Shown here: one piece after another, positions 40,258 to 55,250 of the stretch
How the letters are laid out: every line of letters begins with the position of its first letter
Position numbering within the stretch: the stretch's first letter is position 1
Source of the DNA: Lewinella sp. W8
GTDB lineage: Bacteria > Bacteroidota > Bacteroidia > Chitinophagales > Saprospiraceae
DNA length: 64,000 bases
NCBI RefSeq assembly: GCF_004375085.3
Contig: NZ_SNAQ03000010.1
Coordinates: forward strand, 62,001 to 126,000
Direction: 5' to 3'
Translations under genes and position numbers: made by a program
Notes under the pieces: generated by a model
Database searches by the model: none
What the model saw: only the letters and a program-made list of their open reading frames with translations
What the model was told of the DNA's origin: nothing

Positions 40258-40323
40258 TTGATATTTATCATTTTTCCCTTTGATGGCCATCATGGAGTAG
40301 GGTAGTGCTTTGCCGCACCTTTG
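40258..40323 (+). promoter_or_regulatory. Two FNR-type boxes and -7-like box upstream of hemN
   Basis: TTGATATTTATCAT at 40258-40271 and TTGATGGCCATCAT at 40280-40293, both TTGAT-N4-ATCAT, starts 22 bp apart. CACCTTTG at 40316-40323, one base from TAnnTTTG, starts 36 bp after the second box's start. That puts the near box around -41 from the expected transcription start, the usual activator position. The same spacing recurs upstream of ccoS and the universal stress gene. Confidence 0.75.
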
Positions 40324-40360
40324 GAGAGTAATCCTGAAGAAGCAAGGATTCTATTCAATT

Positions 40361-41734
40361 ATGCTCGTACCTCCAACGACCAATGGCTACCTGATCGAGA
40401 AGTATGACCGGCCCGTGCCGCGCTATACCAGCTATCCGACGGTGCCCTACTGGCAAAAAACGCCCCCGACGCAGGGGGAATGGTTGGCCGCCGTCAATCA
40501 GCGTATGGAGGAAAGCCAGGACATCAGCCTGTATATCCACCTTCCCTTTTGCGAAAAACTCTGTACCTATTGCGGTTGTAATAAACGCATTACGATTAAT
40601 CACGGTGTAGAGGCTCCCTACGTGAACGCCGTGCTGGCGGAATGGAAGTTATACGTCGAGGCGATGAACCATCGTCCCCGCATCAAGGAGCTTCACCTTG
40701 GCGGGGGTACGCCCACCTTCTTCAGCCCGGAAGAACTGGGGCGCCTCATTGACGGAATCTTTGTTCACGCCGATCGGGCGGATAAATTCGACTACAGTTT
40801 CGAGGCCCACCCCTCCAGCACGAGCAGGGAGCACCTTCAGGCCCTGGCCGACCGCGGATTCGACCGACTGAGCATCGGGGTTCAGGATTTCAACCAGGCC
40901 ATTCTTCAGCTCATCAACCGCGATCAGACGCATCAGCAGGTACTCGATACGGCGGATTACGCCCGGGCGACCGGCTACAAGTCGGTGAATTTTGACATCA
41001 TTTACGGGTTGCCCACCCAGACGCGCGAAGACATCATCAACACCGTGCAACGGATCGATGAGCTCCGCCCGGAGCGGATCGCTTTTTACAGCTACGCTCA
41101 CGTGCCCTGGGTTAGTCCTGGACAGCGGGCCTACGACGAAACGGATCTTCCTCGCGGTCTGGAGAAACGAGCGCTCTACGAGCTCGGTAAGGAAATGCTG
41201 ACCGACATCGGCTACCAGGATATTGGCCTTGACCATTTTGCGTTGCCCGAAGACGATTTGTATCAGGCCAGCGAGGCGGGCGAATTACACCGCAACTTCA
41301 TGGGCTATACGGCACTACCCACCAAGATGACCATCGCGCTGGGTTGTTCCTCCATTGGAGACAGCTGGGATATGTACGTCCAGAACGAAAAGAAGGTGGA
41401 AGACTACCAGAAAGCCGTCTTCGTAGAAAAGCGGCTACCCATCATCAAGGGGCACCAGCTGACGGAAGAAGACCAGGTTGTACGGCAGCATATCCTTAAC
41501 CTGATGTGTCAGCACGCCACCGAGTGGAGGGCAGAACATCTACGGGCTTCGGCCCTGGAGCGGGCCGTTCCACTGTGGAACGACATGGCCGCCGATGGAC
41601 TCTTACGGCGATCGCCCTACCGCATCGAAGTCCGTGAGGAAGGGATGCCCTTCCTGCGGAATATTTGCCTGCCCCTGGACGACTACTTTTGGAATCGTCG
41701 TCCGGAAGCCCCCACCTTTAGTCAGTCAGTGTAA
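40361..41734 (+). CDS. hemN: Oxygen-independent coproporphyrinogen III oxidase
   Basis: 457-residue radical SAM enzyme that decarboxylates coproporphyrinogen III for haem synthesis without O2. The start ATG at 40361 follows from the family N-terminus LIEKYDRPVPRYTSYPTVPYW; the longer frame from 40310 is unlike the family. The [4Fe-4S] motif is CEKLCTYCGCNKRI (C-x3-C-x2-C-x-C). GGGTPTFF, SIGVQDF and FDIIYGLPTQT are further family blocks, and the HemN C-terminal domain is present. Its stop overlaps the start of the ccoI gene by one base. Haem for the cbb3 oxidase and FNR-type control both fit low oxygen. Confidence 0.95.
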   Translation: MLVPPTTNGYLIEKYDRPVPRYTSYPTVPYWQKTPPTQGEWLAAVNQRMEESQDISLYIHLPFCEKLCTYCGCNKRITINHGVEAPYVNAVLAEWKLYVEAMNHRPRIKELHLGGGTPTFFSPEELGRLIDGIFVHADRADKFDYSFEAHPSSTSREHLQALADRGFDRLSIGVQDFNQAILQLINRDQTHQQVLDTADYARATGYKSVNFDIIYGLPTQTREDIINTVQRIDELRPERIAFYSYAHVPWVSPGQRAYDETDLPRGLEKRALYELGKEMLTDIGYQDIGLDHFALPEDDLYQASEAGELHRNFMGYTALPTKMTIALGCSSIGDSWDMYVQNEKKVEDYQKAVFVEKRLPIIKGHQLTEEDQVVRQHILNLMCQHATEWRAEHLRASALERAVPLWNDMAADGLLRRSPYRIEVREEGMPFLRNICLPLDDYFWNRRPEAPTFSQSV

Positions 41735-44184
41735 TGGGACAGGATACGGCCAGCCCCAACGATATCGTCCGGGCCCTTGAAGTGGACACCGTTTCGGATT
41801 CCTCCGCCACGGTAAAAGACAAGTCTGCCTGCCGTCACTGCGGCGATCCCTGTCCGACGCCTCCAATCAGCAGAGGAGAAGATAACTTCTGTTGTGTGGG
41901 GTGCGCTACGGTATTTGACTTGTTGCAGGCCAACGGATTGGGCGATTTCTACCAACTCGATGAGGCGGCCGGCCGCTCCCAGCAAAAACGGGGAGACGCC
42001 AATTACGACTGGCTCGACGTCGAAGAACTTGCCACCCCCTTCGTGCAGTACCGGGACAATCAGCAGACCCGGGTGGCGCTTGAGTTACCCCAGATACACT
42101 GTACTTCCTGCGTCTGGTTGCTGGAGCGGTTGCCCCGGCTGGCCGAAGGCGTGCACGCCGTTACGGTTAACTTCAGCCGGAGAACCGCCACCATCGTGTT
42201 CCGCCAGGATACCATTTCCTTCCGGGAGCTGGCCGAGTGGCTGGCCCGCATTGGTTATCCCCCCGTATTCCACGAGCGCGATCAGGGCGACGCCCGCAAG
42301 CCCCGGAACCGCAGACTTATTTATCAGATTGGACTGGCGGGATTCACCTTCGGTAACGTGATGTTGCTGAGCTTCCCCGAATACCTCGGACTGGGTATTG
42401 ACCTGGAGGGAGGAACCTTCGCGCGGGCGTTTGGCTACCTGAACCTGGCGCTCAGTGTGCCCCTGTTATTGTATAGTGGACAGGACTACCTGCGGTCGGC
42501 CTGGTCCGGCCTGCGGGCCGGAATGCTCACCATCGACGTGCCGATCTCGGTGGGCTTGTTGGCCCTGTTCGGCCGTTCCACCTACGAAGTTCTGACGCAT
42601 ACCGGAGCGGGATACTTCGACAGCCTGGCCGGTTTACTCTTCTTTCTGTTGGTCGGCCGCTGGTTTCAGGACCGCACCTTCGATCGGTTGTCCTTTGACC
42701 GGGACTATCGCCACTACTTCCCCATCGCCGCGAACCGCTATGATGCGACCGGGGCCCAGACGGAGCCCATCGCCCTGGCGGACATTAAGGCGGGAGACTG
42801 GCTACTGGTCCGACCCGGAGAGTTGATTCCCGCCGACGGTAAACTGCTCAACGACGCCAAAGAGGGAATTGACTACAGCTTCGTCACGGGAGAAGCCGAA
42901 CCCCAGCCCCGGGAAGCCGGTGACCAGATTTATGCCGGTGGCCGGGCCGTAGCCACGGCCCTGGACCTGCTGGTAGAAAAACCCGTCGATGACAGCTACT
43001 TACTGCAGCTATGGCGACAGGAGGCCCGGGAAGATGCCGTGCGCAACCGAAACCTGACGGATCGGATCAGTCAGACCTTCACCCTGGTGGTGCTGTCCAT
43101 CGCCCTGCTCACTTTCCTGTTTTGGTGGCCTACGGACGCGGGAAGGGCCCTGAATGCCGCTACGGCCGTGTTGATCATTGCCTGTCCCTGTGCCCTGGCG
43201 CTGGCCATCCCGTTTACGTACGGATCGCTGATTCGCCAGTTGGGTAAGCACGGACTGTACCTGCGCAGCGTTGCGGTGGTGGAAGCCCTGCACGGCATAA
43301 CGGATTACGTACTGGACAAAACCGGAACGCTGACCGAGCCCGGACTGGGCGCCCCCGCCGCCGAGGAACCGTCCCTGGACCCGCTAACCGCCGCGGTGGT
43401 GCTGGCGATGGTGCGGCAGTCGAATCACCCCAAGAGCGCGGCCCTCGGCCGATTATTGGCGGCGGACGGTGTCCGCCCGCTGGCCACCGGGACGGTGGAA
43501 GAAATTGCGGGTAAGGGGTTGCGGCTTGACCATCAGGGAATCGAGTACCGGGTGGGAAGCGCCAGTTTCTGCGGCCAGCCCCAGCACGAAAACCATAGTG
43601 TTTACGTCACCGCTGACGGAGAGCTGAAGGCAGCCTTCAGCCGGGAATTACCCCGTTTGCGGGAGGGTGCCCTGCAGCTTCTCGATAGCATTGATCACCG
43701 GAGCCTGCACCTGCTCTCCGGGGACGAGCCACATACCGGGGAGTTCTGGATGACCTATTTTGACGACTCCCGGATGCACTTCCGGCAAAGCCCCTTTGAT
43801 AAGCAGCGCTACATCAAGCAACTGCAGGGTGATGGCCAGCGGGTTCTCATGTTGGGCGACGGCCTCAATGATGCGGGGGCACTGCGCACCGCGGAAGTCG
43901 GGGTGGCAGTTAGCGAGGATATGGCGGGGTTCTCCCCGGCCTGCGACGGCATTCTGTCCTCCGACGCCCTGCCGAAGCTGCCGGAAATGCTGCGGAGCAT
44001 CAAGCGCGCAAAGATGGTGCTTTACGTGGCCTACGCGCTGGCTTTCCTCTACAACGTCGTTGGCCTGAGCTTCGCGGTACGGGGGCTGCTGTCTCCGGTG
44101 GTGGCCGCCATTCTCATGCCCCTCAGCTCCATTTCTATCGTGGTGGTCGGCATCGCCGGGACGAATCTGGTTGCTCGCCGCTGA
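41734..44184 (+). CDS. ccoI: Copper-transporting P-type ATPase for cbb3 oxidase assembly (CcoI-like)
   Basis: 816 residues. Unusual N-terminal Cys-rich segment (CRHCGDPCPTPP, FCCVGCATVF), as in CcoI and FixI, then a heavy-metal domain (LPQIHCTSCVWLLERLP), eight membrane helices with the CPC metal site (IACPCALALAIP), phosphorylation site DKTGTLTEPG, and GDGLNDAGAL. CcoI exports copper for the CuB site of the oxidase. It is coupled to hemN by the one-base overlap and lies upstream of the cco genes. The usual TGE appears as SFVTGEAEPQ. Strong call. Confidence 0.92.
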   Translation: MGQDTASPNDIVRALEVDTVSDSSATVKDKSACRHCGDPCPTPPISRGEDNFCCVGCATVFDLLQANGLGDFYQLDEAAGRSQQKRGDANYDWLDVEELATPFVQYRDNQQTRVALELPQIHCTSCVWLLERLPRLAEGVHAVTVNFSRRTATIVFRQDTISFRELAEWLARIGYPPVFHERDQGDARKPRNRRLIYQIGLAGFTFGNVMLLSFPEYLGLGIDLEGGTFARAFGYLNLALSVPLLLYSGQDYLRSAWSGLRAGMLTIDVPISVGLLALFGRSTYEVLTHTGAGYFDSLAGLLFFLLVGRWFQDRTFDRLSFDRDYRHYFPIAANRYDATGAQTEPIALADIKAGDWLLVRPGELIPADGKLLNDAKEGIDYSFVTGEAEPQPREAGDQIYAGGRAVATALDLLVEKPVDDSYLLQLWRQEAREDAVRNRNLTDRISQTFTLVVLSIALLTFLFWWPTDAGRALNAATAVLIIACPCALALAIPFTYGSLIRQLGKHGLYLRSVAVVEALHGITDYVLDKTGTLTEPGLGAPAAEEPSLDPLTAAVVLAMVRQSNHPKSAALGRLLAADGVRPLATGTVEEIAGKGLRLDHQGIEYRVGSASFCGQPQHENHSVYVTADGELKAAFSRELPRLREGALQLLDSIDHRSLHLLSGDEPHTGEFWMTYFDDSRMHFRQSPFDKQRYIKQLQGDGQRVLMLGDGLNDAGALRTAEVGVAVSEDMAGFSPACDGILSSDALPKLPEMLRSIKRAKMVLYVAYALAFLYNVVGLSFAVRGLLSPVVAAILMPLSSISIVVVGIAGTNLVARR

Positions 44185-44190
44185 TCTTCA

Positions 44191-44220
44191 TCAGGGCGAT
44201 CACCGCAGGTGCCGGGCCTC
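44191..44220 (+). repeat. Dispersed GCAGGTGCC motif after ccoI
   Basis: GGCGATCACCGCAGGTGCCG begins just after the ccoI stop, with the same orientation relative to its gene as the copies after cysE and the sulfotransferase. The rest of 44221-44496 shows no gene. Confidence 0.45.
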
Positions 44221-44496
44221 CCCGTTAAAGCAGTAATGATCACCGTGACGGATCGATGAATGAGGTGCCGCCTCTTTACTGCTGGCTAGCCGGATATTCT
44301 CTTGTTCTCTCCGGAATTTGCTTCGTGCAAGACGGCAGTTCTATGCTCTCATCCGACCAGCGTGTACGGCCTGTTGCTTACGGATGGATTCTTCAATTTT
44401 CGGAGGATCGTTCAAGCTTTGTTGGTGCTTAATTTAAATGTGTAATGTGTTGAAAAATAGGAATTTGTTGACCTTCGTCGGGCCCTTGATGCATAA

Positions 44497-44562
44497 ATGA
44501 CATAGATCACTATTGGCCTTGATTCGGGTCATGAAAATCGCTTAGGGTGCACGCTACCTTGC
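44497..44562 (+). promoter_or_regulatory. Two FNR-type boxes and -7-like box upstream of ccoS
   Basis: ATGACATAGATCAC at 44497-44510 and TTGATTCGGGTCAT at 44519-44532, starts 22 bp apart, then TACCTTGC at 44555-44562 as a -7-like box, starting 36 bp after the second box. The near box matches TTGAT-N4-ATCAT with one change; the far one is weaker. Transcription would start near 44566, 16 nt before the ccoS ATG. Confidence 0.7.
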
Positions 44563-44581
44563 GGCACATAAAAGCACAGCG

Positions 44582-44755
44582 ATGAAAGTAATTCTGCTAC
44601 TGATTGGTCTTAGCCTCGTGGTTGCCCTCATTTTCCTGGCAGCCTTTTTTTGGGCGGTCGATGACGGTCAGTACGAAGACGAAGTAACGCCTTCCATCCG
44701 GATGCTTTTTGATGAATCACCCTCCACCTCTTCTAAATCCTCGTCTAATGACTAA
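44582..44755 (+). CDS. ccoS: cbb3 oxidase maturation protein CcoS
   Basis: 57 residues, one membrane helix (LLLIGLSLVVALIFLAAFFW) followed by AVDDGQYED and an acidic/serine-rich tail. CcoS is needed for cofactor insertion into cbb3 oxidase and commonly lies beside ccoI and ccoN. The W-x2-DDGQYED pattern is the family signature. It overlaps the ccoNO start by 8 bp (ATGACTAA), so the two are translationally coupled. This is the first gene after the FNR-type promoter. Confidence 0.88.
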   Translation: MKVILLLIGLSLVVALIFLAAFFWAVDDGQYEDEVTPSIRMLFDESPSTSSKSSSND

Positions 44756-46922
44756 GACGGCTACCAAAACGGACGCCCTTGGACTTGAGCATTTCAAGTA
44801 CGACAACGACATCGTCCGGAAATTTGCCTACGCAACGGCATTTTGGGGTTTGATCGGCATGACGGTAGGTCTTCTTGCTGCCCTGCAGATGATCTGGCCG
44901 GCCCTCAACTTTACCCCCGAGACCACCTTCGGTCGTGTTCGCCCCCTTCACACTAATGCTGCCATTTTTGCCTTCGTGGGCAACGGCATCTACATGGGGG
45001 TTTATTACTCCCTTCAGCGCCTGATGAAGGCCCGGATGTGGAGTGACTTATTGAGCACCCTGCACTTCTACGGCTGGCAGATCATCATTCTGGCGGCGGC
45101 CCTTACTCTTCCGCTGGGCATCAGCACGGGTAAGGAATACGCCGAGCTGGAATGGCCCATTGACATCGGGATCGCGCTGGTCTGGATTTTCTTCGGCATC
45201 AATATGTTCATGACCATCATGAAGCGCCGGGAACGCCACCTCTACGTCGCCGTGTGGTTCTACATTGCTACCTGGATTACCGTTACGGTACTTCACGTGG
45301 GTAATAGTCTGGAACTGCCCGCCACGCTGTGGAAGTCCTACCCGCTGTTTGCCGGGGTACAGGATGCGCTGGTGCAGTGGTGGTACGGGCATAATGCGGT
45401 GGCTTTCTTCCTGACCACCCCTTACCTGGGCCTGATGTATTACTTCCTGCCCAAGGCCGCCAACCGCCCGGTATACAGTTACCGCCTTTCCATCATCCAC
45501 TTCTGGGCCCTGATCTTCATCTACATCTGGGCCGGTCCTCACCACTTGCTGTACACCAGTCTCCCCGACTGGGCGCAGTCTCTGGGTATGGTCTTTAGTT
45601 TGATGCTCATCGCCCCGAGCTGGGGTGGGATGCTGAACGGTCTGCTGACCCTGCGGGGTGCCTGGGACCGGGTGCGGGAAGACCCCGTGCTGAAAATGAT
45701 GGTAGTGGCCGTCACGGCCTACGGGATGGCCACGCTCGAAGGGCCCCTGCTGTCCATCAAGTCCGTCAACGCCATCAGCCACTACACGGACTGGACCGTG
45801 GGCCACGTACACATCGGTACGCTGGGCTGGAACGGTATGCTGACTTTCGGTATCCTCTACTGGTTGTTCCCCCGTCTCTTTGACACCAAATTGTACAGCA
45901 AGAAGCTGGCGAACGTCCACTTCTGGATTGCGACCCTGGGGATGCTCTTCTACGCCATTCCCCTGTACTGGGCGGGCTGGACGCAGAGCTCCATGTGGAA
46001 GCAATTCCTGCCCGAAGGGATGCTGCAGTACGGTAACTTCCTGGAAACGGTTACGGCGATCCTGCCGATGTACATGATGCGGGCCTTCGGTGGTGCCATC
46101 TACCTGGCCGGGGTCATCCTGATGATCTACAACCTCATCAAAACCGTCAAACAGGGTAACTTCATCGGCGATGAAGACGCCTCTGCACCGCCGCTGCAGG
46201 GTGCCGTGGAAGCCCACAAAGGGGAGCACTGGCACCGCTGGATTGAGCGCCGTCCGGTGCAGCTGTTAATTGGTTCGGCGGTAGTCGTCCTGATTGGGGG
46301 CATGGTAGAAATCTTTCCCATGGTTATGGTGGAGGATAACGTTCCGAAAATCGAATCCGTCCGCCCCTACACCGCCCTGGAACTCAACGGCCGGGACCTC
46401 TACATCAAAGAGGGATGTAATACCTGCCACAGCCAGATGATCCGACCCTTCCGCTCGGAGACGGAGCGCTACGGCGAGTACTCCAAGTCCGGAGAATTCA
46501 TTTACGATCGTCCCCACCTCTGGGGCAGTAAGCGTACTGGTCCGGACCTGCACCGGGTCGGACAGAAATACCCCGATAGCTGGCACTATAACCACATGAT
46601 GGACCCCCGGATCACTTCGCCGGGCAGCATCATGCCTCCCTACGCCTGGATGCTGGAAAAGGATCTGGACACGCGTTACACGCCCGCCAAGATCCGGACC
46701 CTGATGACGCTGGGCACGCCCTATCCGGACGATTATCCGGAAACGGCCGCCGAGGACATGCAGCGGCAGGCCAAGGAAATCGCCGATCGCCTCCGGGCGC
46801 AGGGCGTCGAAGAGCCGGCCGAAGGCCGCCTGGAAGACAAGCAGATCATTGCCATGATCGCTTACCTCCAGCGCCTGGGTACCGACATCAAAACCACGGT
46901 AGGAGAGCCTACCAAAAAATAA
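44748..46922 (+). CDS. ccoNO: Fused cbb3 cytochrome c oxidase subunits I and II (CcoN-CcoO)
   Basis: 724 residues; I start at the ATG at 44748, inside the ccoS end, because the family N-terminus TKTDALGLEHFKYDNDIVRKF follows. The CcoN part (about 1-480) has the haem and CuB ligands in RPLHTNAAIFAF, WYGHNAVAFF, AGPHHLLYTS and VGHVHIGTLGWNG. After a short linker and a new membrane helix, the CcoO part binds one c-type haem at CNTCH, with RPFRSETERYGEYSKSGE and the later PYAWM for the Met ligand. Such fusion is common in Bacteroidota. It reduces O2 at low concentration and pumps protons. Confidence 0.95.
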   Translation: MTKTATKTDALGLEHFKYDNDIVRKFAYATAFWGLIGMTVGLLAALQMIWPALNFTPETTFGRVRPLHTNAAIFAFVGNGIYMGVYYSLQRLMKARMWSDLLSTLHFYGWQIIILAAALTLPLGISTGKEYAELEWPIDIGIALVWIFFGINMFMTIMKRRERHLYVAVWFYIATWITVTVLHVGNSLELPATLWKSYPLFAGVQDALVQWWYGHNAVAFFLTTPYLGLMYYFLPKAANRPVYSYRLSIIHFWALIFIYIWAGPHHLLYTSLPDWAQSLGMVFSLMLIAPSWGGMLNGLLTLRGAWDRVREDPVLKMMVVAVTAYGMATLEGPLLSIKSVNAISHYTDWTVGHVHIGTLGWNGMLTFGILYWLFPRLFDTKLYSKKLANVHFWIATLGMLFYAIPLYWAGWTQSSMWKQFLPEGMLQYGNFLETVTAILPMYMMRAFGGAIYLAGVILMIYNLIKTVKQGNFIGDEDASAPPLQGAVEAHKGEHWHRWIERRPVQLLIGSAVVVLIGGMVEIFPMVMVEDNVPKIESVRPYTALELNGRDLYIKEGCNTCHSQMIRPFRSETERYGEYSKSGEFIYDRPHLWGSKRTGPDLHRVGQKYPDSWHYNHMMDPRITSPGSIMPPYAWMLEKDLDTRYTPAKIRTLMTLGTPYPDDYPETAAEDMQRQAKEIADRLRAQGVEEPAEGRLEDKQIIAMIAYLQRLGTDIKTTVGEPTKK

Positions 46923-46930
46923 TGGCCAGT

Positions 46931-46963
46931 CCCGCACCGGAGCGCTCGTAGTTCCGGTGCGGG
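46931..46963 (+). other. Hairpin between ccoNO and ccoQ
   Basis: CCCGCACCGGA and TCCGGTGCGGG, an 11-bp perfect stem with an 11-nt loop, no T-run. Probably a transcript-processing or stability element that sets ccoNO apart from later genes. Confidence 0.6.
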
Positions 46964-46979
46964 CCCAAAAAATATCATC

Positions 46980-47156
46980 ATGGCAAAGTATCTGCTCGTG
47001 GGAGAAAATATTAACTGGATGGCCATTATGGCACTGGTGACTTTCTTCCTCATTTTTTCCCTCACCCTCATTATGGTTTTTGGTCGTAAGGCAAAGCAGT
47101 ACGACCACGTGTCCAGCCTCCCGCTGGACGATAAGCCTGAACTCCCAAAAGAATAG
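46980..47156 (+). CDS. ccoQ: CcoQ-like small subunit of cbb3 oxidase
   Basis: 58 residues with one membrane helix (MAIMALVTFFLIFSLTLIMV) and a short charged tail FGRKAKQYDHVSSLPLDD. CcoQ stabilises the cbb3 complex; Bacteroidota forms share little beyond length, helix and place between ccoNO and ccoP, all met here. It lies 5 bp before the ccoP ATG. Too short for many ORF callers. Confidence 0.82.
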   Translation: MAKYLLVGENINWMAIMALVTFFLIFSLTLIMVFGRKAKQYDHVSSLPLDDKPELPKE

Positions 47157-47161
47157 TCGTC

Positions 47162-48136
47162 ATGAACAGTACCAAAATTCGTAAAGCGGGCGGCTTTATC
47201 CTACTCCTGACTACTTCGGTTACGGCCGTGGCTCAGGAAGCTACCGAAGCCGCCGTGACCGCCCCCACGGGGGGCGCCCTCGGGCTTGATCGTTTCTCGT
47301 CCATGGAATTGTTGCTGCTCGGTCTCATTGGCACGATTCTCCTGCTGGGAGCCGCCAGCATCATCAAGCTGAGCTTCTCCCTGCTGGAGATGCAAAAGCT
47401 ACGGGTACTGGAGAAATACTCCCCCGAACAACTGCAGGAAATTGGCGTCGCCAATGTGGTCAGCACCGAACCCTGGTGGAAGGAAATGTACAAGAAGTGG
47501 ACCAACGTTGTCCCCGTGGAAAAGGAGCAGGACATTATGCTCGACCACGACTACGACGGTATCCACGAATTAGACAACAGCCTACCTCCCTGGTGGCTGG
47601 CCATTTTCTACGTCACTACTGCCTTTGCGGTCTTTTACATCGGTTACCAGCACTTTTCCGATTACGGAACGTCCAGCCAGGAAGCCTACGTTATGGAAAT
47701 GGAGGAAGCCGAAGCTTCGGTCAAGGCCTTCCTGGCCACCCAGGCCAACGCCGTGGATGAAACCAACGTCGTGATGCTTGACGACCCGGAAGCCATTGGT
47801 CGGGGAGAAATGACCTACATCGCCAAATGTGCCGTCTGTCACGGCCAACTCGGGGAAGGAGGTATCGGCCCTAACCTGACGGACCAGTACTGGCTGCACG
47901 GTGGATCGATCGCCGACGTCTTCAAGACCGTGAAGTATGGCGTACCCGAAAAGGGCATGGTACCCTGGAAGAATGATTTGCGCCCCGCGCAAATCCAGGA
48001 GGTCGCCAGCTTCATCAAGACCCTGGTGGGCACCAACCCACCTAACCCTAAGGAAGCACAGGGAGAGATCTACGTGGATGATCCCGCGGAAACGACCGAG
48101 GAGCCCAGTGAAGAAAGCCTCTCCATGAACGAGTAG
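47162..48136 (+). CDS. ccoP: cbb3 oxidase cytochrome c subunit CcoP, single haem
   Basis: 324 residues. An N-terminal signal-like helix, a second membrane helix (LLLLGLIGTILLLGAASIIKL), the CcoP block LDHDYDGIHELDNSLPPWWLAIFYVTTAFAVFYI, and one cytochrome c domain with CAVCH and GMVPWKNDL for the Met ligand. Proteobacterial CcoP usually has two haem sites; I find only one CxxCH here. The C-terminal tail is acidic (ETTEEPSEESLSMNE). It passes electrons to CcoO in the periplasm. Confidence 0.93.
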   Translation: MNSTKIRKAGGFILLLTTSVTAVAQEATEAAVTAPTGGALGLDRFSSMELLLLGLIGTILLLGAASIIKLSFSLLEMQKLRVLEKYSPEQLQEIGVANVVSTEPWWKEMYKKWTNVVPVEKEQDIMLDHDYDGIHELDNSLPPWWLAIFYVTTAFAVFYIGYQHFSDYGTSSQEAYVMEMEEAEASVKAFLATQANAVDETNVVMLDDPEAIGRGEMTYIAKCAVCHGQLGEGGIGPNLTDQYWLHGGSIADVFKTVKYGVPEKGMVPWKNDLRPAQIQEVASFIKTLVGTNPPNPKEAQGEIYVDDPAETTEEPSEESLSMNE

Positions 48137-48154
48137 TTTCAGACTTAACACCGC

Positions 48155-48219
48155 GGTTGTTCCGGGCCGCCAACTAAACCACCTATCGCTTATCTGCACT
48201 CACGGTGGCCCGGACAACC
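48155..48219 (+). other. Long-arm hairpin between ccoP and ccoG
   Basis: GGTTGTTCCGGGCC pairs with GGCCCGGACAACC (one bulged base) across a 33-nt loop, followed by ACTTTTCCC. It may be a partial terminator between the oxidase genes and ccoG. Confidence 0.5.
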
Positions 48220-48251
48220 ACTTTTCCCTGATCAATCAAATAACTACACCC

Positions 48252-49865
48252 ATGCAAGCTGTCGGTGACGAAAAAGGGACTTATCGCGACTCCATCGCGA
48301 CCGTCGGTGACGACGGGAAACGACAATGGATTTACCCCAAGAAACCCAACGGCCGGTTTTACCGCTGGCGCACCTGGGTGAGTTGGGGACTGTTGGCCAT
48401 CCTGTTTGGCTTACCCTTCATCAAAATGGGCGGCGAGCCCCTGGTACTCCTCAATGTCCTGGAGCGCCGCTTTATTCTCTTCGGACTGCACTTCACTCCC
48501 CAGGACTTCCACCTCTTTGCGATCCTGATGATAACCGCAGTGGTGTTCATCATCCTGTTTACCGTCATCTGGGGCCGCCTTTTTTGCGGCTGGGTTTGTC
48601 CCCAGACCATCTTCATGGAGATGGTTTTTCGCAAGGTAGAATACTGGATTGAGGGAGACGCCAACGCTCAGCGCCGCCTGAATAAAGCGCCCTGGAACGC
48701 GGAAAAAATTCTCAAGAAGGGAGGGAAGCAACTGATCTTCATCCTCATCTCCGCCCTCATCGCCCACACCTTTTGGTCTTACCTGATCGGCGTGGAGCGC
48801 GTACAGGAAATCGTTACCGGCGGTCCTCGCGAAAACTTTGGCCTGTTTACCGCCATCGTTGCCTTCATCGGGGTATTCTACTTCGTGTTCAGTTACATGC
48901 GGGAGCAGGTCTGCATTGCTGTGTGTCCGTACGGGCGGCTGCAGGGAGTCTTGCTGGACAACAACAGTGTAGCGGTCATGTACGATTGGGTGCGGGGAGA
49001 GCCCCGCGGGAAACTCAAGCGGCAAAAAAAGAAAAAGCCGGCAGCGACTCCGAAGAAGGAAAAAGAGTGCAGCAATTGTGCCAACTGCCGGGACGGAAAG
49101 GACGGCTGCCACGATGATGTGCTGAACAAAATGGCGAGTGCATTGACGCAGCTTGAAGGCACGGCCGCTCCCAAAGCCACGGCACCTGCGGCCACGCCCA
49201 TGAAAGTTGCTGCGAACCAGGAGATCATGACCCTGGAAGAACCCAAGCCGCTGGGCGACTGTATCGACTGCAATCTCTGCGTGCAGGTTTGTCCTACGGG
49301 AATTGATATCCGTAACGGTACGCAGCTGGAGTGTATCAACTGCACGGCCTGTATCGACGCCTGTGACGAGGTGATGGACAAAATCAAGCGCCCCCGCGGC
49401 CTGATCCGTTACGACAGTCATACCGGAGTGGAGCAAAAGGAAACCAAACTCTGGTCTCCGCGGGTGATGGCCTACAGCGCCGTACTGGTTGCCCTGATTG
49501 GACTGAATATCTTCCTGCTTACCGGCCGCGAAGCCGTGGATGCCGTCCTGCTGAGGACTCCGGGGCTGCTCTATCAGAAAAACGAAGACGGCACCCTGAA
49601 TAACCTGTACACCTTCCAGTTGCTGAACAAAACGACGGGGGATTTACCCATTGAGTTCCGACTGCAGGATCGCCCTGATGGCCGGGTACGACTCGTCGGT
49701 GAACCGCCAATCGCCAAACCACAGCAGGTACTGGAAGGGGCCCTGTTCATTGATCTGCCACCCACCAAAGGAGCGGGGGCAAAAGTAAAGGTAAGGGTCG
49801 AAGTATGGTCCGGTGACGAAAAGCTGGACGTGCTGAAAACCAACTTCATTCAACCCATAAATTAA
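48252..49865 (+). CDS. ccoG: CcoG-like cupric reductase for cbb3 oxidase, with an unusual insertion
   Basis: 537 residues. Membrane helices with GRLFCGWVCPQTIFME and CIAVCPYGRLQ near the N-terminal half, then two ferredoxin-like clusters: GDCIDCNLCVQVCPTGIDIRNG and CINCTACIDACDEVM, and a C-terminal immunoglobulin-like domain. CcoG reduces Cu(II) for insertion into the oxidase. Residues about 254-334 form an insertion before GDCIDC: a Lys-rich stretch (KRQKKKK), then CSNCANCRDGKDGC, then an Ala/Pro/Thr-rich linker. The four extra cysteines could bind a metal. Typical CcoG proteins have a short link here. Confidence 0.92.
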   Translation: MQAVGDEKGTYRDSIATVGDDGKRQWIYPKKPNGRFYRWRTWVSWGLLAILFGLPFIKMGGEPLVLLNVLERRFILFGLHFTPQDFHLFAILMITAVVFIILFTVIWGRLFCGWVCPQTIFMEMVFRKVEYWIEGDANAQRRLNKAPWNAEKILKKGGKQLIFILISALIAHTFWSYLIGVERVQEIVTGGPRENFGLFTAIVAFIGVFYFVFSYMREQVCIAVCPYGRLQGVLLDNNSVAVMYDWVRGEPRGKLKRQKKKKPAATPKKEKECSNCANCRDGKDGCHDDVLNKMASALTQLEGTAAPKATAPAATPMKVAANQEIMTLEEPKPLGDCIDCNLCVQVCPTGIDIRNGTQLECINCTACIDACDEVMDKIKRPRGLIRYDSHTGVEQKETKLWSPRVMAYSAVLVALIGLNIFLLTGREAVDAVLLRTPGLLYQKNEDGTLNNLYTFQLLNKTTGDLPIEFRLQDRPDGRVRLVGEPPIAKPQQVLEGALFIDLPPTKGAGAKVKVRVEVWSGDEKLDVLKTNFIQPIN

Positions 49866-49871
49866 TTCGCC

Positions 49872-50318
49872 ATGAAATTCAATTGGGGACACGGCATTTT
49901 CCTCTTCTACAGCCTCTTCGCACTCTCCCTGATCATCGTGGTGATCAAGAGCACGGAGTTTGACAACAGTCTCGTCGCCGAAGACTATTACGCCAAGGAC
50001 ATCACTTATCAGCGGATGATTGACCGCAAGGCCAACAGTCGGGCCCTGGAAAATCCGGTTGAGTTGCGACGGATGGAAGGGGGCTTCAACCTGATTTTTC
50101 CGCAGGCGGACCTGGCGGGCCCCGTATCGGGGACGGCCCATTTCTACCGTCCCAGCAGCAGTGACTTTGACAAGATGGTGCAGCTGAAGACCAGTGAAGC
50201 CGGAAGCATGTATCTGGCCTCCGATGACCTGGCGGCGGGTTTCTACCGACTCAAGGTAGAGTGGAACGCCGGGGGCAAGGAGTTTTTCGATGAATTCACG
50301 ATGCAACTACGCCCCTAG
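49872..50318 (+). CDS. ccoH: FixH/CcoH-like protein of the cbb3 operon
   Basis: 148 residues. One N-terminal membrane helix (GIFLFYSLFALSLIIVVIKS), then SLVAEDYYAKDITYQRMIDRK, the usual FixH opening, and a periplasmic beta domain (FYRLKVEW). Follows ccoG after 6 bp and precedes the safE-like gene by 3 bp. FixH/CcoH is needed for stable assembly of cbb3 oxidase, probably through copper handling. Confidence 0.88.
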   Translation: MKFNWGHGIFLFYSLFALSLIIVVIKSTEFDNSLVAEDYYAKDITYQRMIDRKANSRALENPVELRRMEGGFNLIFPQADLAGPVSGTAHFYRPSSSDFDKMVQLKTSEAGSMYLASDDLAAGFYRLKVEWNAGGKEFFDEFTMQLRP

Positions 50319-50321
50319 ATT

Positions 50322-51017
50322 ATGTTACTCTGGACTGCCTTTCTGTTGGGACTAGTCGGTAGCCTGCACTGCGTGGGGATGTGTGGTCCGTTAATGCTGG
50401 CCTTGCCCTCTCCGGACGGTGCGCTTACCCGCGCGAGCCGGCTGATGTTGTATCAGGGCGGACGGATCACCAGCTATATGGTGCTCGGTTTCCTGCTGGG
50501 GTGGCTGGGGTGGGGAGCCAAACTGTGGAACGCCCAGGGAATCCTGGCCTGGGTATCCGGTATCTTACTGGTGGGCTTCGCCGTCCTGCGGGTGGACCCC
50601 GGAAACTGGCTCCAGCGACTGCCCGCCTTCGCCCGGTTTCAACTTTTTCTGCGCAGCGGTTTTGCGCGTCTTTTTCAACGGGGTGGAGGCGTTAACCATT
50701 ACGGCGTAGGAGCGCTGAACGGCCTTCTGCCCTGTGGGTTGGTCTACGTCGCGGTCATTGCCGCGGCCAATGCCGGCAACCCGCTACTCGGAGCCGCCTA
50801 CATGGGAGTCTTCGGCCTGGGCACCAGCCCCCTGCTGGTAGCTAGCGTATGGCTAGGGAAGGGAGCACTGAAAAAATTTGGGCTGCGCCTGCCATCCTGG
50901 GCTCCGCTCATCGTGGCGGCCGTAGGCGTATTGTTGATCTGGCGGGCCGGACAGGTACAACTTCCCGCAGATTTCGACTTCTTTCAGGCCACCAACTTTG
51001 CCCCCATGTGCCATTAA
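50322..51017 (+). CDS. Sulfite-exporter TauE/SafE-family membrane protein
   Basis: 231 residues with about six helices. GLVGSLHCVGMCGPLMLALP near the start and LNGLLPCGLVYVAVIAAANAG are the paired GMCGP and LPCG motifs of the UreH-like transmembrane group. Such proteins often sit after fixH in cco operons and are thought to help copper delivery. The protein ends with NFAPMCH, a further Met-Cys-His that could bind copper (inference). It is the last cco gene before the kinase. Confidence 0.85.
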   Translation: MLLWTAFLLGLVGSLHCVGMCGPLMLALPSPDGALTRASRLMLYQGGRITSYMVLGFLLGWLGWGAKLWNAQGILAWVSGILLVGFAVLRVDPGNWLQRLPAFARFQLFLRSGFARLFQRGGGVNHYGVGALNGLLPCGLVYVAVIAAANAGNPLLGAAYMGVFGLGTSPLLVASVWLGKGALKKFGLRLPSWAPLIVAAVGVLLIWRAGQVQLPADFDFFQATNFAPMCH

Positions 51018-51110
51018 TTGACCTTTGCCGCACGAAATATGTGTTCCCACCGTGCATATCCTTGGTCGGGAAGGCCTATATTCCCGCCGAATTGAAAACT
51101 ACCGGCAAGC

Positions 51111-52313
51111 ATGCCCAACAGGCAATCCCAGAATTCTCTTGATGATTACAAACGTCTTCAGGCCCTTTTTGAGATGGCTACGGACGGTATCATCACCATC
51201 AATAATCGCGGGGTAATTGAGTCCATCAACCGGGCCGGTTGCAAGCTTTTCGGGTATGCTGCGGAGGAGGTCCGGGGAAAAAAGGTCAACATTTTAATGA
51301 ACGACCACGATCGGACTCATCATGACCAGTACCTGGATCGCTACGAAAGAACCCATGACCCGCACATCATCGGTATTGGCCGGGAGGTAGTAGGACGGAG
51401 GAAAGACGGTACGTTGTTTCCCCTGCGCCTGGCCGTGAGCGAGGTAGTGCTGGAAGACGAAACGGTCATCTATACGGGAATACTGCACGATATTTCGGCC
51501 ATTCGGGAAGCCCAGCGCAAGGTGGAGCAACTCAATGCCGAACTGGAAGAGAAGGTAGAAGCCCGTACCGCCGCACTCCGGTTGCGGGAGCAACAGCTCC
51601 GGGAAGCCCTCGGCAAGGAGAAAGAACTCAACGAATTGAAGAGTCGCTTTCTGAGCATGGCCTCCCACGAATTTAAAACGCCCCTCAGCACGGTGCTGAG
51701 CTCAATTGAGCTCATTGAAATGTATACCGAAGGGGAACAACAACCGAAGCGGGAAAAACACACCGAGCGGATCAAAAAAGCGGTCAGCCAACTGACCGAT
51801 GTGCTAAACGATTTTCTCTCCCTCTCTAAACTGGAACAGGGTAAAGTAGACGTAAGCCTGAAACAGGTGAACGTGCGGGCCATCGTGGCTTCCAGCATCG
51901 AGGCCGCCGAAGGGCAATTCCGACCCGGTCAGGAGGTCATGCTGAAAATTGACGAACAGCCGGCACAGATCGAATCGGACAGTAAGTTACTGAAGCATAT
52001 TCTCATCAACCTTATCTCTAACGCGGCCAAATACTCCGATAACCATAAGACCATTACCATCGGTGGTGGTCTGGATGGAGATGCTTACCAGATTTCCATA
52101 CGGGATGAGGGGATCGGCATTCCGCCCGAAGATCAGGTCCATCTTTTTGACCGCTTCTTTCGGGCCCGCAACGTAGAGAACGTGAAGGGAACGGGACTGG
52201 GACTTAATATTGTGAAGCACTACGTGGAATTATTGGGAGGCTCCGTGACTTTTTCCAGTGACCTGGGATCCGGTACCACCTTCTACGTGCACTTGCCCTA
52301 TCAAAAAAGCTGA
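51111..52313 (+). CDS. fixL: FixL-like haem-PAS sensor histidine kinase
   Basis: 400 residues, soluble. A single PAS domain (about 15-140) has the FixL haem pocket: HDQYLDRYERTHDPHIIGIG, where His71, Arg77, Ile86 and Arg91 fall at the same spacing as the haem ligand His200 and Arg206, Ile215, Arg220 of the Bradyrhizobium protein. GREVVGRRKDGTLFPL and TGILHDIS complete it. A coiled coil (150-175) leads to the H box ASHEFKTPLSTVLSS with His186, then the N box LINLISNAAKYSD and DEGIGIPPED, LFDRFFRARN, GTGLGLNIVKHY. It should autophosphorylate when O2 leaves the haem. Two bases separate it from its regulator. Confidence 0.88.
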   Translation: MPNRQSQNSLDDYKRLQALFEMATDGIITINNRGVIESINRAGCKLFGYAAEEVRGKKVNILMNDHDRTHHDQYLDRYERTHDPHIIGIGREVVGRRKDGTLFPLRLAVSEVVLEDETVIYTGILHDISAIREAQRKVEQLNAELEEKVEARTAALRLREQQLREALGKEKELNELKSRFLSMASHEFKTPLSTVLSSIELIEMYTEGEQQPKREKHTERIKKAVSQLTDVLNDFLSLSKLEQGKVDVSLKQVNVRAIVASSIEAAEGQFRPGQEVMLKIDEQPAQIESDSKLLKHILINLISNAAKYSDNHKTITIGGGLDGDAYQISIRDEGIGIPPEDQVHLFDRFFRARNVENVKGTGLGLNIVKHYVELLGGSVTFSSDLGSGTTFYVHLPYQKS

Positions 52314-52315
52314 AC

Positions 52316-53362
52316 ATGGAAAAACAAACCTCCATACTCATCATCGAGGATAATCCCGAGGTGCGGGAAAATTTGTCGGAAATCCTGGAACTTTATGGAT
52401 ATGACATTCGGGAAGCACCGAACGGAATGGAAGGCGTAAAGGCCGCCAAGGCCGCTCCGCCGGACATCATTCTTTGCGACGTCATGATGCCCGAACTCGA
52501 CGGCTATGGGGTGTTGGATATCCTGGCCGGTGACCCGACCACGGCGGGAATTCCCTTCGTGTTCATTACCGCGCGCACCGAAAAGGAAGATATTCGTCGG
52601 GGCATGAACCTTGGGGCTGATGATTACATCACCAAACCCTTTTACAAGGATGAACTGCTGGCCGTAATCAAAACCAGACTCAAGAAAGCCCAGTTGCGGG
52701 GCGCTGCGGCGGGACCGAAGAAAACCTTGCTGGACCCCGACGGCGGTCTGAAAAGGCTTTACGAGGTATTTGCCGAGGAAGGCCGGGTGCAATCATTCGT
52801 CCAGCGGGAGCGGATTGTGCACGCCGGAGAATTACCCCGCTTCCTGTTCCTCATTGAAAAAGGGCACGTTCACCTCCGGCGGTCTCATGAATACGGAAAG
52901 GATTACATCCTTAAAGAACTGGGGCCGGAGGAATTCCTGGGACTCCCCTCCCTGGTGGAACAAAGCGTCTACCCCTACGATGCCCTGGTGGCCGCCAAGG
53001 AGTGTACGTGCCGGATGCTCGCCGCAGAGCGCTGCCGTAGTCTGATCGGGGAAGATCCCGACGTGGCGGCGGCCATCACCCGCCTACTGGCCGGCCGTGT
53101 CCTGGAGAACGAGGACCACCTCGTTCATCAGGCATACGACAGCGTCCGCCGCCGGACCGCGCTGGTCTTATGTGATCTGCAGGTTCGCCACGAAGGGGAG
53201 CCCATCGTCATGCCTCGGGAAGACCTTGCTCAAATGGTGGGCACCACCAAGGAAAGCGTTATTCGGGCACTGTCCGATTTTAAGCGGGAAGGCCTGGTGG
53301 GAATTCAGGGCAGCAAGATTGAAGTGCTGGAGCTGAAAGCCCTGCGCGAATTATTGGTGTAG
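52316..53362 (+). CDS. Response regulator with CRP/FNR-type output (receiver fused to FixK-like domain)
   Basis: 348 residues. Receiver domain (1-120) with Asp11/12, phospho-acceptor Asp55 (CDVMMPELDG) and the TKPF Lys. Then a cyclic-nucleotide-type beta barrel (about 140-260: IVHAGELPRFLFLIEKGHVHL, GPEEFLGLPSLVEQ) and a CRP winged helix (MPREDLAQMVGTTKESVIRALSDFKREGLV). In the recognition helix, Glu313 and Arg317 match the FNR positions that read TTGAT; Ile316 replaces FNR's Ser. No N-terminal Fe-S cysteines are present, so oxygen must come from the kinase. It therefore combines FixJ and FixK. Likely targets are the FNR-type boxes upstream of hemN, ccoS and the stress genes. Confidence 0.85.
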   Translation: MEKQTSILIIEDNPEVRENLSEILELYGYDIREAPNGMEGVKAAKAAPPDIILCDVMMPELDGYGVLDILAGDPTTAGIPFVFITARTEKEDIRRGMNLGADDYITKPFYKDELLAVIKTRLKKAQLRGAAAGPKKTLLDPDGGLKRLYEVFAEEGRVQSFVQRERIVHAGELPRFLFLIEKGHVHLRRSHEYGKDYILKELGPEEFLGLPSLVEQSVYPYDALVAAKECTCRMLAAERCRSLIGEDPDVAAAITRLLAGRVLENEDHLVHQAYDSVRRRTALVLCDLQVRHEGEPIVMPREDLAQMVGTTKESVIRALSDFKREGLVGIQGSKIEVLELKALRELLV

Positions 53363-53377
53363 GTGCCGGACTAGCCC

Positions 53378-54130
53378 TTAATTGGGTAACTCCTCCACTA
53401 CCTCCGGACTGCCGAACAGGGCCAGTAGTTCCCAGAGAGCGGTACTGACCTCGCTGGAGGCCTCCTGGGCGCTACACTGGTCTCCTTCCTCCAGCTTGCC
53501 GACGAAGAAATTTATCTGTCGCTCCAGCTCGGCGTGGGCCGTAGCAAAGGCGTCGTGGTCAAAGTTGGAGGAATTGTAGAGCAGTGGGTCGGGAGAGTAT
53601 TTTTTGACGGCACGCCACTCAATGCGGGCCTTTTTGGCCCACCAGGTAAATTCTCCCCATTCCATCAGGCAGAGCATCTGGTCGTTCACGATGGTCTCCA
53701 CTTCCTGCCAGGTACTGATGAAGTCGTAGAGCCGTCCGACGTGGAGCTCCTGAAAAGCTGCGGGGTCCGCAGCGTAGAGCTCATAAGTAGCCCGGTCCAG
53801 CAGCACCTTCGCCCCCTCGAGGTCGCCATTCAGGATACTGGAGCGCACGTCTCCGTAGGCAACTTCCGCCTTGTCCAGGTGATAGCGCAACTCTTCCCGG
53901 GCCCTTTCTCCCATCGGGCGATACCACTGCCCGCGGAGGTGCTCAAGTTGTTTGTCAAAATTGGCCATCGATACCTTGGCGGCGGCCGTGTCGCCGGCAT
54001 GAAGATCGCTCATCAGGTCAACGTACAATTGCTCCGCGACGCGCCCCTGTACCAGTTGCTCCTGCGTACAGTGAGTAAAGGGTAGGGTGAGCAGCAGGCA
54101 GGGCAGCAATAATTTTTTCAGTGGATGCAT
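53378..54130 (-). CDS. Lipoprotein of unknown function, helical
   Basis: 250 residues from the ATG at 54130. Signal peptide with lipobox-like FTHC at Cys22. The rest is predicted to be all helical and strongly acidic, with WQEVETIVNDQMLCLMEWGEFTWWAKKARIEW in the middle. I recognise no family. It converges with the regulator gene (15 bp between stops) and is read towards it from the universal-stress side, so a link to low-oxygen physiology is only positional. Confidence 0.7.
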   Translation of the reverse strand: MHPLKKLLLPCLLLTLPFTHCTQEQLVQGRVAEQLYVDLMSDLHAGDTAAAKVSMANFDKQLEHLRGQWYRPMGERAREELRYHLDKAEVAYGDVRSSILNGDLEGAKVLLDRATYELYAADPAAFQELHVGRLYDFISTWQEVETIVNDQMLCLMEWGEFTWWAKKARIEWRAVKKYSPDPLLYNSSNFDHDAFATAHAELERQINFFVGKLEEGDQCSAQEASSEVSTALWELLALFGSPEVVEELPN

Positions 54131-54190
54131 GGCCAATTAATTTATCGGATGAGGAATGGGGCAAAGGAGCGGATGATGAAATAGATTATT

Positions 54191-54215
54191 TGGCACCACG
54201 GTGCAGGTGCAACGA
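54191..54215 (+). repeat. Dispersed GCAGGTGCC-like motif, weak copy
   Basis: GGCACCACGGTGCAGGTGCA; the core lacks its last bases. Lies in the gap between the lipoprotein and the universal stress gene. Confidence 0.35.
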
Positions 54216-54253
54216 TATTCCGTACGGCCAGGGAGACCGGGAAATTTCCCGGG

Positions 54254-55132
54254 TTAATAATCTACCCAGGCATCGGCCTCCGTGTGTAGTACGAGTAACG
54301 GTCGTTTGGTCGTAAGGGCAAGATCCTGCGTCAGGCTCCGGTGTACGAGCGCTCCCCAGCGGGATCTGCGGCGGTTCACGATGATCAACAAATCCGCCTC
54401 CCGTTCTTCGGCGTAATCCTCCAGCCCCGAGGCAATATTGTTGTCCTCTACGTTAGCAATTTCGTAGGCAAACTTTGGTGCGGGTTTGCCGTCGATGAGC
54501 TGCTCCATCAATCGCCAGGGAACAAAATTGATGGTCTTGGCCTCCGTTGGGGTGACGATGTGCACGAAGTGCATGGAGGCTCCGAAGAGCTCGGCCCATG
54601 ACGATAACTGATCGAGGACCAACGGCTGGGCCGTTTCGAAGTTATTGGCCACCACCATGCGGTTATACGGAGTGTACTGAACCCTGGGCGGAATGAGCAA
54701 CACCGGTTTGATACAGGATTCAGACACGGTCGCTGCCGTCGACCCCAGCCACTTGGCTACGGGGCCATTGTGGCTGTGGGTGGCCATCACTACCAGGTCA
54801 TATTCCTTACTTGCCGCCATTTTGTTAATGGCCGCCGAAGGGGTAAGCGAAATCCCCGTCGTGTAGGATACGGTGACGTCTTCCGGTATTTCAAACCAAT
54901 CGTAGGCGGGCGCCAGTGGGTTGGGCTGAGAAAACTCCTGCAGGCGGCGGTGAACACTCCCCTGAATGGACCCATCGCCGGTAATGATCAGCGGTTTGCC
55001 GGGGGTGATGGAGCCTCCGTAATAATGGACCAGGTCTACGTCCAGTCCCAACTGGTCCGCCAGGTGCAGGGCATAAACGTATGCATTCTTTGAGGAGTAG
55101 GAGAAATCTACGGGGACTAATATTTTGGACAT
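54254..55132 (-). CDS. Universal stress protein, two tandem Usp domains
   Basis: 292 residues, twice the usual Usp length. The first domain starts KILVPVDFSYSSKNAYVYALHLAD and holds VVMATHSHNGPVAKWLGSTAATV, the ATP-loop area; the second starts near MVVANNFETAQPLVLDQLSSW and its loop is less conserved. Tandem Usp proteins are typical members of low-oxygen regulons. Divergent from another tandem Usp gene; the shared 166-bp region has a pair of FNR-type boxes placed symmetrically for both genes. Confidence 0.88.
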   Translation of the reverse strand: MSKILVPVDFSYSSKNAYVYALHLADQLGLDVDLVHYYGGSITPGKPLIITGDGSIQGSVHRRLQEFSQPNPLAPAYDWFEIPEDVTVSYTTGISLTPSAAINKMAASKEYDLVVMATHSHNGPVAKWLGSTAATVSESCIKPVLLIPPRVQYTPYNRMVVANNFETAQPLVLDQLSSWAELFGASMHFVHIVTPTEAKTINFVPWRLMEQLIDGKPAPKFAYEIANVEDNNIASGLEDYAEEREADLLIIVNRRRSRWGALVHRSLTQDLALTTKRPLLVLHTEADAWVDY

Positions 55133-55154
55133 GACCTACGCTTTTGATTGATGG

Positions 55155-55250
55155 CTAAGTTCCTGGTATTGAAGAAGTAGGCAGTTGCGAAAAATCAATC
55201 TCATCCATGATCGTAATCAATTCAGTGGGAGGCGCCAGGAACGAAGTTTG
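55155..55250. promoter_or_regulatory. Divergent promoter region with two FNR-type boxes between Usp genes
   Basis: TTGCGAAAAATCAA at 55185-55198 and ATGATCGTAATCAA at 55207-55220, starts 22 bp apart. On the plus strand GAAGTTTG at 55243-55250 starts 36 bp after the second box's start, as at hemN and ccoS. On the minus strand GAACTTAG (55162-55155) begins 36 bp from the outer edge of the other box. One pair could thus drive both genes. Confidence 0.65.

Follow-up and report, generated by a model that had tools for sequence, protein, structure and literature searches.

Paired FNR-type boxes on a fixed grid at hemN, cco and Usp promoters of Lewinella sp. W8, and a receiver-CRP fusion as their probable reader

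Genes and promoters of the locus

The window considered here is a stretch of 64,000 nucleotides of Lewinella sp. W8 (contig NZ_SNAQ03000010.1, positions 62,001 to 126,000). Three of its promoters, in front of hemN, of the cco genes and of a Usp gene, are built alike: two FNR-type boxes start 22 base pairs (bp) apart and a -7 element begins 36 bp past the second start. On the plus strand, hemN (40361-41734), encoding oxygen-independent coproporphyrinogen III oxidase, is followed by a ccoI-type copper P-type ATPase gene (41734-44184). The copy of hemN at a relative locus (L153) matches TIGR00538 at 9.9e-118. Then come, on the same strand, a ccoS-like small gene of 57 amino acids (44582-44755), counterparts of which precede ccoNO in relatives, ccoNO itself (44709-46922), encoding fused subunits I and II of a cbb3 oxidase with COX1 and FixO matches, ccoP (47162-48136), ccoG (48252-49865), ccoH (49872-50318) and the gene of a DsbD_2-type membrane protein of the cco cluster (50322-51017). 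A FixL-like PAS histidine kinase (51111-52313) and a FixJ/FixK-like fusion (52316-53362), which joins a receiver to a cyclic nucleotide (cNMP)-type fold and a Crp-type helix-turn-helix (HTH), complete the series. The Usp gene behind the third promoter lies at 55299-56159, also on the plus strand.

All promoter elements are on the plus strand. At hemN, the distal box TTGATATTTATCAT (40258-40271) and the proximal box TTGATGGCCATCAT (40280-40293) show no mismatch to wTGAy-N4-rTCAw, and in the half-site letters scored both fit the FNR box type TTGATnnnnATCAA exactly. The -7 box CACCTTTG (40316-40323) has five of the six letters of TAnnTTTG, the sigma-A -7 box of Bacteroidota. The predicted start site, about 40328, is upstream of the ATG at 40361. 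At cco, the distal box ATGACATAGATCAC (44497-44510) has one mismatch and the proximal box TTGATTCGGGTCAT (44519-44532) none; the -7 box TACCTTGC (44555-44562) keeps four of the six letters of TAnnTTTG and is an exact TAnnTTGY, with a predicted start site at about 44567. At Usp, the distal box TTGCGAAAAATCAA (55185-55198) has two mismatches, the proximal box ATGATCGTAATCAA (55207-55220) none, and the -7 box GAAGTTTG (55243-55250) carries five of the six letters, the start site being predicted at about 55255. Two elements are weak when judged singly: the distal box of Usp and the -7 box of cco. These nine positions, the identical offsets and the fit of each box to the pattern or a near form of it had been put forward by an earlier reading of the letters alone (the sequence-only reading), and every coordinate proved exact.

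In a study of Flavobacterium psychrophilum (PMC9723704), TAnnTTTG is placed at -12 to -5, and TAnnTTGY forms a second -7 class (SM5) at the same position as the sigma-A box. From this published placement, the box centres are predicted at -41.5 and -63.5 in all three promoters, in agreement with the suggestion of the sequence-only reading that the near dimer sits around -41. The classical class II activator position for CRP and FNR is -41.5. Thus, the hemN, cco and Usp promoters probably combine a class II activator site with one adjacent dimer site. Since 22 bp correspond to about 2.1 helical turns, both dimers would face nearly the same way. The proposal of a dimer pair on one face of the DNA is therefore retained as a prediction, with a pitch strictly kept among relatives (see below).

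On the minus strand, a second Usp gene (54254-55132) diverges from the first. A leftward element GAACTTAG, with four of six letters, stands at offset 36. This gene may share the Usp box pair, in which case 18 bp would separate the predicted start site from its ATG.

For the chance tests, the full layout was written as a single pattern of 65 bp (a box pair with a 22-bp pitch, then TAnnTTTG at offset 36), and the reversed pattern and 200 first-order Markov sequences of window length served as controls. With up to three mismatches, both strands of the window gave three matches, exactly the hemN, cco and Usp sites, and the 200 simulated windows gave none. The genome-wide scan proposed by the sequence-only reading covered 6.18 megabases in 91 contigs (G000). 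It returned six full layouts at up to three mismatches against none for the control: the three promoters together with C7:58138, C55:70542 and C88:46554. The 22-bp pair alone, at the same tolerance, was found 20 times, against 4 for the reversed pattern. The best four were hemN (0 mismatches), cco (1), Usp (2) and a site within a subtilase gene (C31:3970, 2 mismatches). Pairs of TGA-N6-TCA with gaps of 0 to 30 numbered 20 (control 2), three of them at 22 bp, hemN and cco included. The sites C7:58138 and C55:70542, which stand at gene starts, are possible further members of the regulon; C88:46554, which overlaps the end of an open reading frame (ORF) on the other strand, and C31:3970 are probably due to chance. 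Two intergenic 22-bp pairs, C55:121608 and C55:122515 (locus L324), have three mismatches each and poor -7 boxes. They precede two adjacent genes, both without a Pfam match. A spread repeat or mobile element as carrier of the boxes is not supported, since base counts show that the N4 centres and the spacers vary between sites.

A rigid grid among related genomes

The spacing was studied in 40 loci of up to 20 kilobases each, taken around the receiver-CRP fusion genes of related genomes. Box pairs with at most one mismatch occurred 19 times at 22 bp and once at most at each of the other spacings between 14 and 60; when two mismatches were allowed, the counts were 42 at 22 bp and no more than 7 at any other spacing. 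In 20 whole genomes, 13 of 20 pairs had a gap of 22, the remaining seven being scattered among other gaps. Among 60 related genomes, the exact 22-bp pair was found 51 times, in 21 genomes (control 0). In 13 loci of carriers known by name, pairs with up to two mismatches fell 7 times on spacing 22 and at most 3 times on any other. A third box was present at 22 bp in 7 cases among 81 sites, with at most 3 cases at any other distance from 14 to 40. Such three-box arrays, in which the pitch of 22 bp is kept, are seen at G053:C9:96379-96465 and at other sites.

The offset was assessed on 81 distinct pairs (51 exact, 30 with one mismatch), hence 162 sides, at loci picked blind to the -7 box. TAnnTTTG, with five or six of its six letters, stood at offset 36 on 51 of the 162 sides and at 48 of the 81 sites. 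Among the other offsets the next best was 58, that is 36 + 22, with five, and the median was 1. Exact TAnnTTGY was observed on 6 of the 162 sides at offset 36, against a mean of 0.14 at other offsets. This enrichment matters for cco, whose -7 box is of the TAnnTTGY kind. Neither a good TAnnTTTG nor an exact TAnnTTGY was present at offset 36 in 28 of the 81 sites, and 3 of the 81 pairs had good -7 boxes on both sides. The full layout at up to two mismatches gave 158 matches in 40 of the 60 related genomes and none for the reversed pattern; 150 of these matches were itemised, and a pair with -7 boxes on both sides is counted twice in the total. The spacing of 22 bp and the offset of 36 bp are thus each a rule, and the grid that they form is rigidly kept in many relatives. 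Taken with the simulated windows, these counts bear out the earlier view that exact reuse at three loci exceeds chance.

Arcticibacter (2 mismatches), Mucilaginibacter (3) and Sphingobacterium (3) have the layout in the interval that separates the fusion gene from hemN. The layout was not found within three mismatches at the loci of Salinimicrobium, Jiulongibacter and four other named carriers.

To list putative targets, the longest ORF with a start within 300 bp was taken as the gene behind each site. The 153 distinct layout sites led to 146 candidate genes, 97 of which begin within 50 bp of the -7 box. In raw counts, these first genes comprise Usp (29), COX1-type oxidase (7), CBS (7), hemN (6 by Pfam, 7 by NCBIfam), P-type ATPase (4), YgaP-like (4), HypA (3), Hsp20 (3) and S30AE ribosome factor (2), as well as receiver, HTH_Crp and kinase domains (2 each). 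The predicted regulon would therefore include the cbb3 oxidase, hemN, the copper ATPase, Usp and CBS proteins. In F. psychrophilum, the cbb3 oxidase and haem synthesis are raised under oxygen limitation, according to the same study (PMC9723704). Since the kinase and fusion genes lie downstream of the cco genes on the same strand, they are probably induced with them, in a positive feedback. The cco genes and the kinase gene are separated by a distinct box pair in several relatives. In six relatives, a conserved protein of 73-83 amino acids (MRFFA..FDKV..RFFLMM) with two probable membrane spans is encoded in the interval from a box pair to the FixL-like gene (L061:6997-7215, L062:7080-7310, L063:6995-7213, L070:12268-12516, L074:6814-7041, L075:11701-11931). 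The L061 copy has no Pfam match, and tblastn found no match to this protein within the window.

The probable reader of the layout

The PAS domain of the window kinase is close to FixL: all seven solved chains matched at 1e-18 or better are FixL (best 1.1e-28), and 45 of 102 aligned residues are identical. A His and an Arg, which we take to be the haem ligand and the regulatory Arg of FixL, are aligned. In 47 kinase ORFs from 53 relative loci, the His is always kept and the Arg is kept in 38. The more distant of these kinases resemble PAS proteins of a general type, for which haem need not be assumed. The FixL-like gene adjoins the fusion gene in 35 of the 40 loci. In the fusion protein, receiver residues E11, D12, D55 and K107 and HTH residues E313 and R317 are invariant among 22 aligned relatives. 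Its structure model (mean predicted local distance difference test, pLDDT, 85.9; predicted template modelling score, pTM, 0.43) supports two folds, and its best Foldseek match is CRP 4ev0. Carriers of the fusion include, by name, Crocinitomix, Aquimarina, Arcticibacter, Mucilaginibacter, Salinimicrobium, Jiulongibacter, Chitinophaga and Sphingobacterium, among others.

The distribution of the layout follows that of the fusion. A full-length fusion is present in 40 of the 60 related genomes, and the layout occurs in 37 of these 40 against 3 of the 20 without fusion (Fisher 2.7e-9), which amounts to 154 matches in carriers and 4 in non-carriers. When genomes at least 90% complete are considered, the figures are 35 of 38 and 3 of 13 (5.2e-6). 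In G044 the fusion is the sole HTH_Crp_2 protein found, and the layout is present, with four matches at three box pairs. In a sample of 296 genomes across the phylum, the layout at no more than one mismatch was found in 20 (control 0); it accompanies 17 of 43 full-length fusions and is present in 3 of the 253 other genomes (Fisher 2.0e-13).

Genomes with the layout and no fusion were found in both samples. The three related ones (G040, G047, G053) encode a stand-alone FNR-like protein in which a cysteine set is largely present and the helix, GTxxE[ST]xIR, resembles that of the fusion. About 10 bp downstream of the FNR-like gene of G053 lies one of the layout sites. The three of the phylum sample (G075, G208, G328) also have stand-alone FNR-like relatives, which are near cco genes in G208 and G328. 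The cysteines of these relatives, at aligned positions 10, 13, mostly 38, 59 and 112, probably hold an iron-sulphur cluster. Two genomes with neither fusion nor layout (G039, G059) have an FNR-like protein in whose helix T replaces I. Another, G043, has an FNR-like protein with a matching helix, no fusion and no layout. The 14 genomes with neither fusion nor FNR-like protein have no layout; absence of the FNR-like protein was called there by score (strength at most 4e-21, against at least 1e-50 for the cysteine type), with some cases inspected and 7 of the 14 genomes being less than 90% complete. In the window fusion itself, only the last of six aligned cysteine positions is kept, and the cysteine-bearing type was not found in the genome of the window, where the best non-fusion match (9.7e-18) lacks the cysteines.

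The receiver-CRP fusion at 52316-53362 is thus the probable reader of the layout in Lewinella sp. W8. Several observations weigh against it. Three related genomes (G013, G037, G058) have the fusion and no layout at two mismatches, as do 26 of the 43 fusion genomes of the phylum sample at one mismatch or fewer. As judged from gene content, the grid is not specific to the fusion, being also found beside FNR-like proteins. The regulatory Arg is absent in 9 of the 47 kinases, and 5 of the 40 fusion loci have no FixL-like neighbour, one of these five lying at a contig end. Finally, a study based on bioreactor data (PMC8510549) predicts a Saprospiraceae CRP homologue to be a carbon sensor. The sequence-only reading had proposed one regulon under the receiver-CRP fusion: the co-occurrence, 37 of 40 against 3 of 20, supports this part, and across the phylum the fusion does not appear to be the sole probable reader.

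It may be imagined that a different CRP/FNR-family protein of the genome reads the boxes, the fusion being nearby for other reasons or controlling something else. HTH_Crp_2 matches five places in the genome, the fusion and four others, and a stand-alone FNR-like protein does accompany the same layout in other genomes. However, the recognition helices of the C44 and C88 proteins read RQTV, that of the C22 protein reads RVGISR and lacks the E, and the FNR-like cysteine type was not found. The C33 protein (C33:114116-114805) has the helix VSREAISR, which keeps the E and R, a point against the fusion, and presumably resembles that of E. coli FNR. In the 24 genomes searched, the C33 type is missing from four that have both layout and fusion (G008, G012, G019, G044) and present in two without layout (G003, G013), so that its presence does not follow the layout. 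In G003 and G014, two compared CRP-family proteins each are accompanied by neither fusion nor layout. G013, which has both the C33 type and the fusion and no layout at two mismatches, argues against either protein being sufficient. The other CRP proteins of the genome were rejected as readers because the occurrence of C33 is uncoupled from the layout and the C44, C88 and C22 helices differ; another reader of this family is considered unlikely.

A similarly low probability is given to a model where the near box alone would work and the far box would be a decoy or would bind a repressor or a different dimer, the 22-bp pitch reflecting packing only. The degenerate distal Usp box would fit this model; however, the pitch is as strict as the -7 offset, and the third box, where present, keeps it too (7 of 81 sites, with no other distance exceeding 3). 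That three AT-rich promoters would look alike by chance is hardly credible. Two elements that are weak when taken singly, the distal box of Usp and the -7 box of cco, would be in its favour, and a single site such as Usp could be fortuitous; against it stand the empty simulated windows, the 158 matches to 0 across 60 genomes and the layouts, with two or three mismatches, that Arcticibacter, Mucilaginibacter and Sphingobacterium have between fusion gene and hemN.

We thus consider it quite likely that all three sites act as promoters in a single low-oxygen regulon, switched by the FixL-like kinase through the receiver-CRP fusion. Binding by the fusion, its phosphorylation, the oxygen signal and the start sites are here inferred from the sequence. 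In the proposed mechanism, falling oxygen would free the FixL-like haem kinase (51111-52313), which would phosphorylate the receiver of the neighbouring fusion (52316-53362). The CRP-type part would then gain the ability to bind, and two adjacent dimers would settle at -63.5 and -41.5. From the latter position, one dimer would make class II activator contacts with RNA polymerase; the far one would contribute by cooperative binding or by an upstream contact. The cbb3 oxidase, oxygen-independent haem synthesis, copper supply and Usp proteins would be switched on. Kinase and fusion, induced along with the cco genes, would close a positive feedback.

Apart from the regulon, the minus strand carries at 53378-54136 a 252-amino-acid ORF without Pfam match, which many relatives of the genus keep at the same place, between the fusion gene and the Usp genes. 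At 31700-34234 and 35142-37643, two adjacent genes encode outer-membrane beta-barrels of one family (OMP_b-brl_3 with a carboxypeptidase-like N-terminus), perhaps a duplication.

Comparison with known systems

Little was found in print on low-oxygen sensing and on cbb3 oxidase induction in Bacteroidota. The present analysis yields candidates for the sensor and the regulator, defines an operator grid to the base pair and lists putative targets. FixL, FNR boxes, class II sites and -7 boxes are already known. Literature searches, made on titles and abstract openings and leaving subscription journals mostly uncovered, gave no description of a FixL-linked receiver-CRP fusion, of a -41.5/-63.5 pair or of a sensor exchange.

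The closest parallel is the FixL-FixJ-FixK cascade of alphaproteobacteria such as Bradyrhizobium and Sinorhizobium, of which hemN is a target. Both systems have a FixL-type PAS kinase, predicted to bind haem in the window, a phosphoreceiver and a CRP/FNR-type activator, and in both, boxes are found or predicted at the cbb3 oxidase genes (fixNOQP/cco) and at assembly genes, here ccoS and hemN-ccoI. Unlike in that cascade, the receiver and the CRP-type activator are in one protein of the window, without a separate FixJ DNA-binding domain. There is no separate FixK either, the FixK-like part belonging to the fusion. Moreover, the boxes stand in a rigid pair, the promoters are of the Bacteroidota type and the phylum is another. 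Thus, as far as gene content tells, the FixL-FixJ-FixK cascade looks collapsed into two proteins.

E. coli class II and tandem CRP/FNR promoters have an activator centre at -41.5 and a second dimer upstream, as is predicted here. They differ in that the grid has a fixed pitch of 22 bp, a predicted second centre at -63.5 at many promoters and a -7 box TAnnTTTG in place of -10 and -35 elements. Such a fixed 22-bp pitch is not known in E. coli, and none turned up for its CRP/FNR promoters in literature searches.

Within the Bacteroidota, the FNR-like proteins of G053, G208 and G328 share with the window fusion the same grid, a similar helix GTxxE[ST]xIR and cco and Usp genes nearby. They differ by lacking a receiver and by possessing the cysteine set, of which the window protein lacks all but one. 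We therefore lean, with some reserve, towards a scenario in which one grid (-63.5, -41.5 and the -7 box) would have been kept across Bacteroidota while the oxygen sensor was swapped, an FNR-like cluster protein in some lineages and FixL with the fusion in others, the FixL-FixJ-FixK relay being reduced to two proteins. If true, this would be a case of sensor exchange above a conserved regulon, and of a three-tier cascade cut to two proteins via gene fusion.

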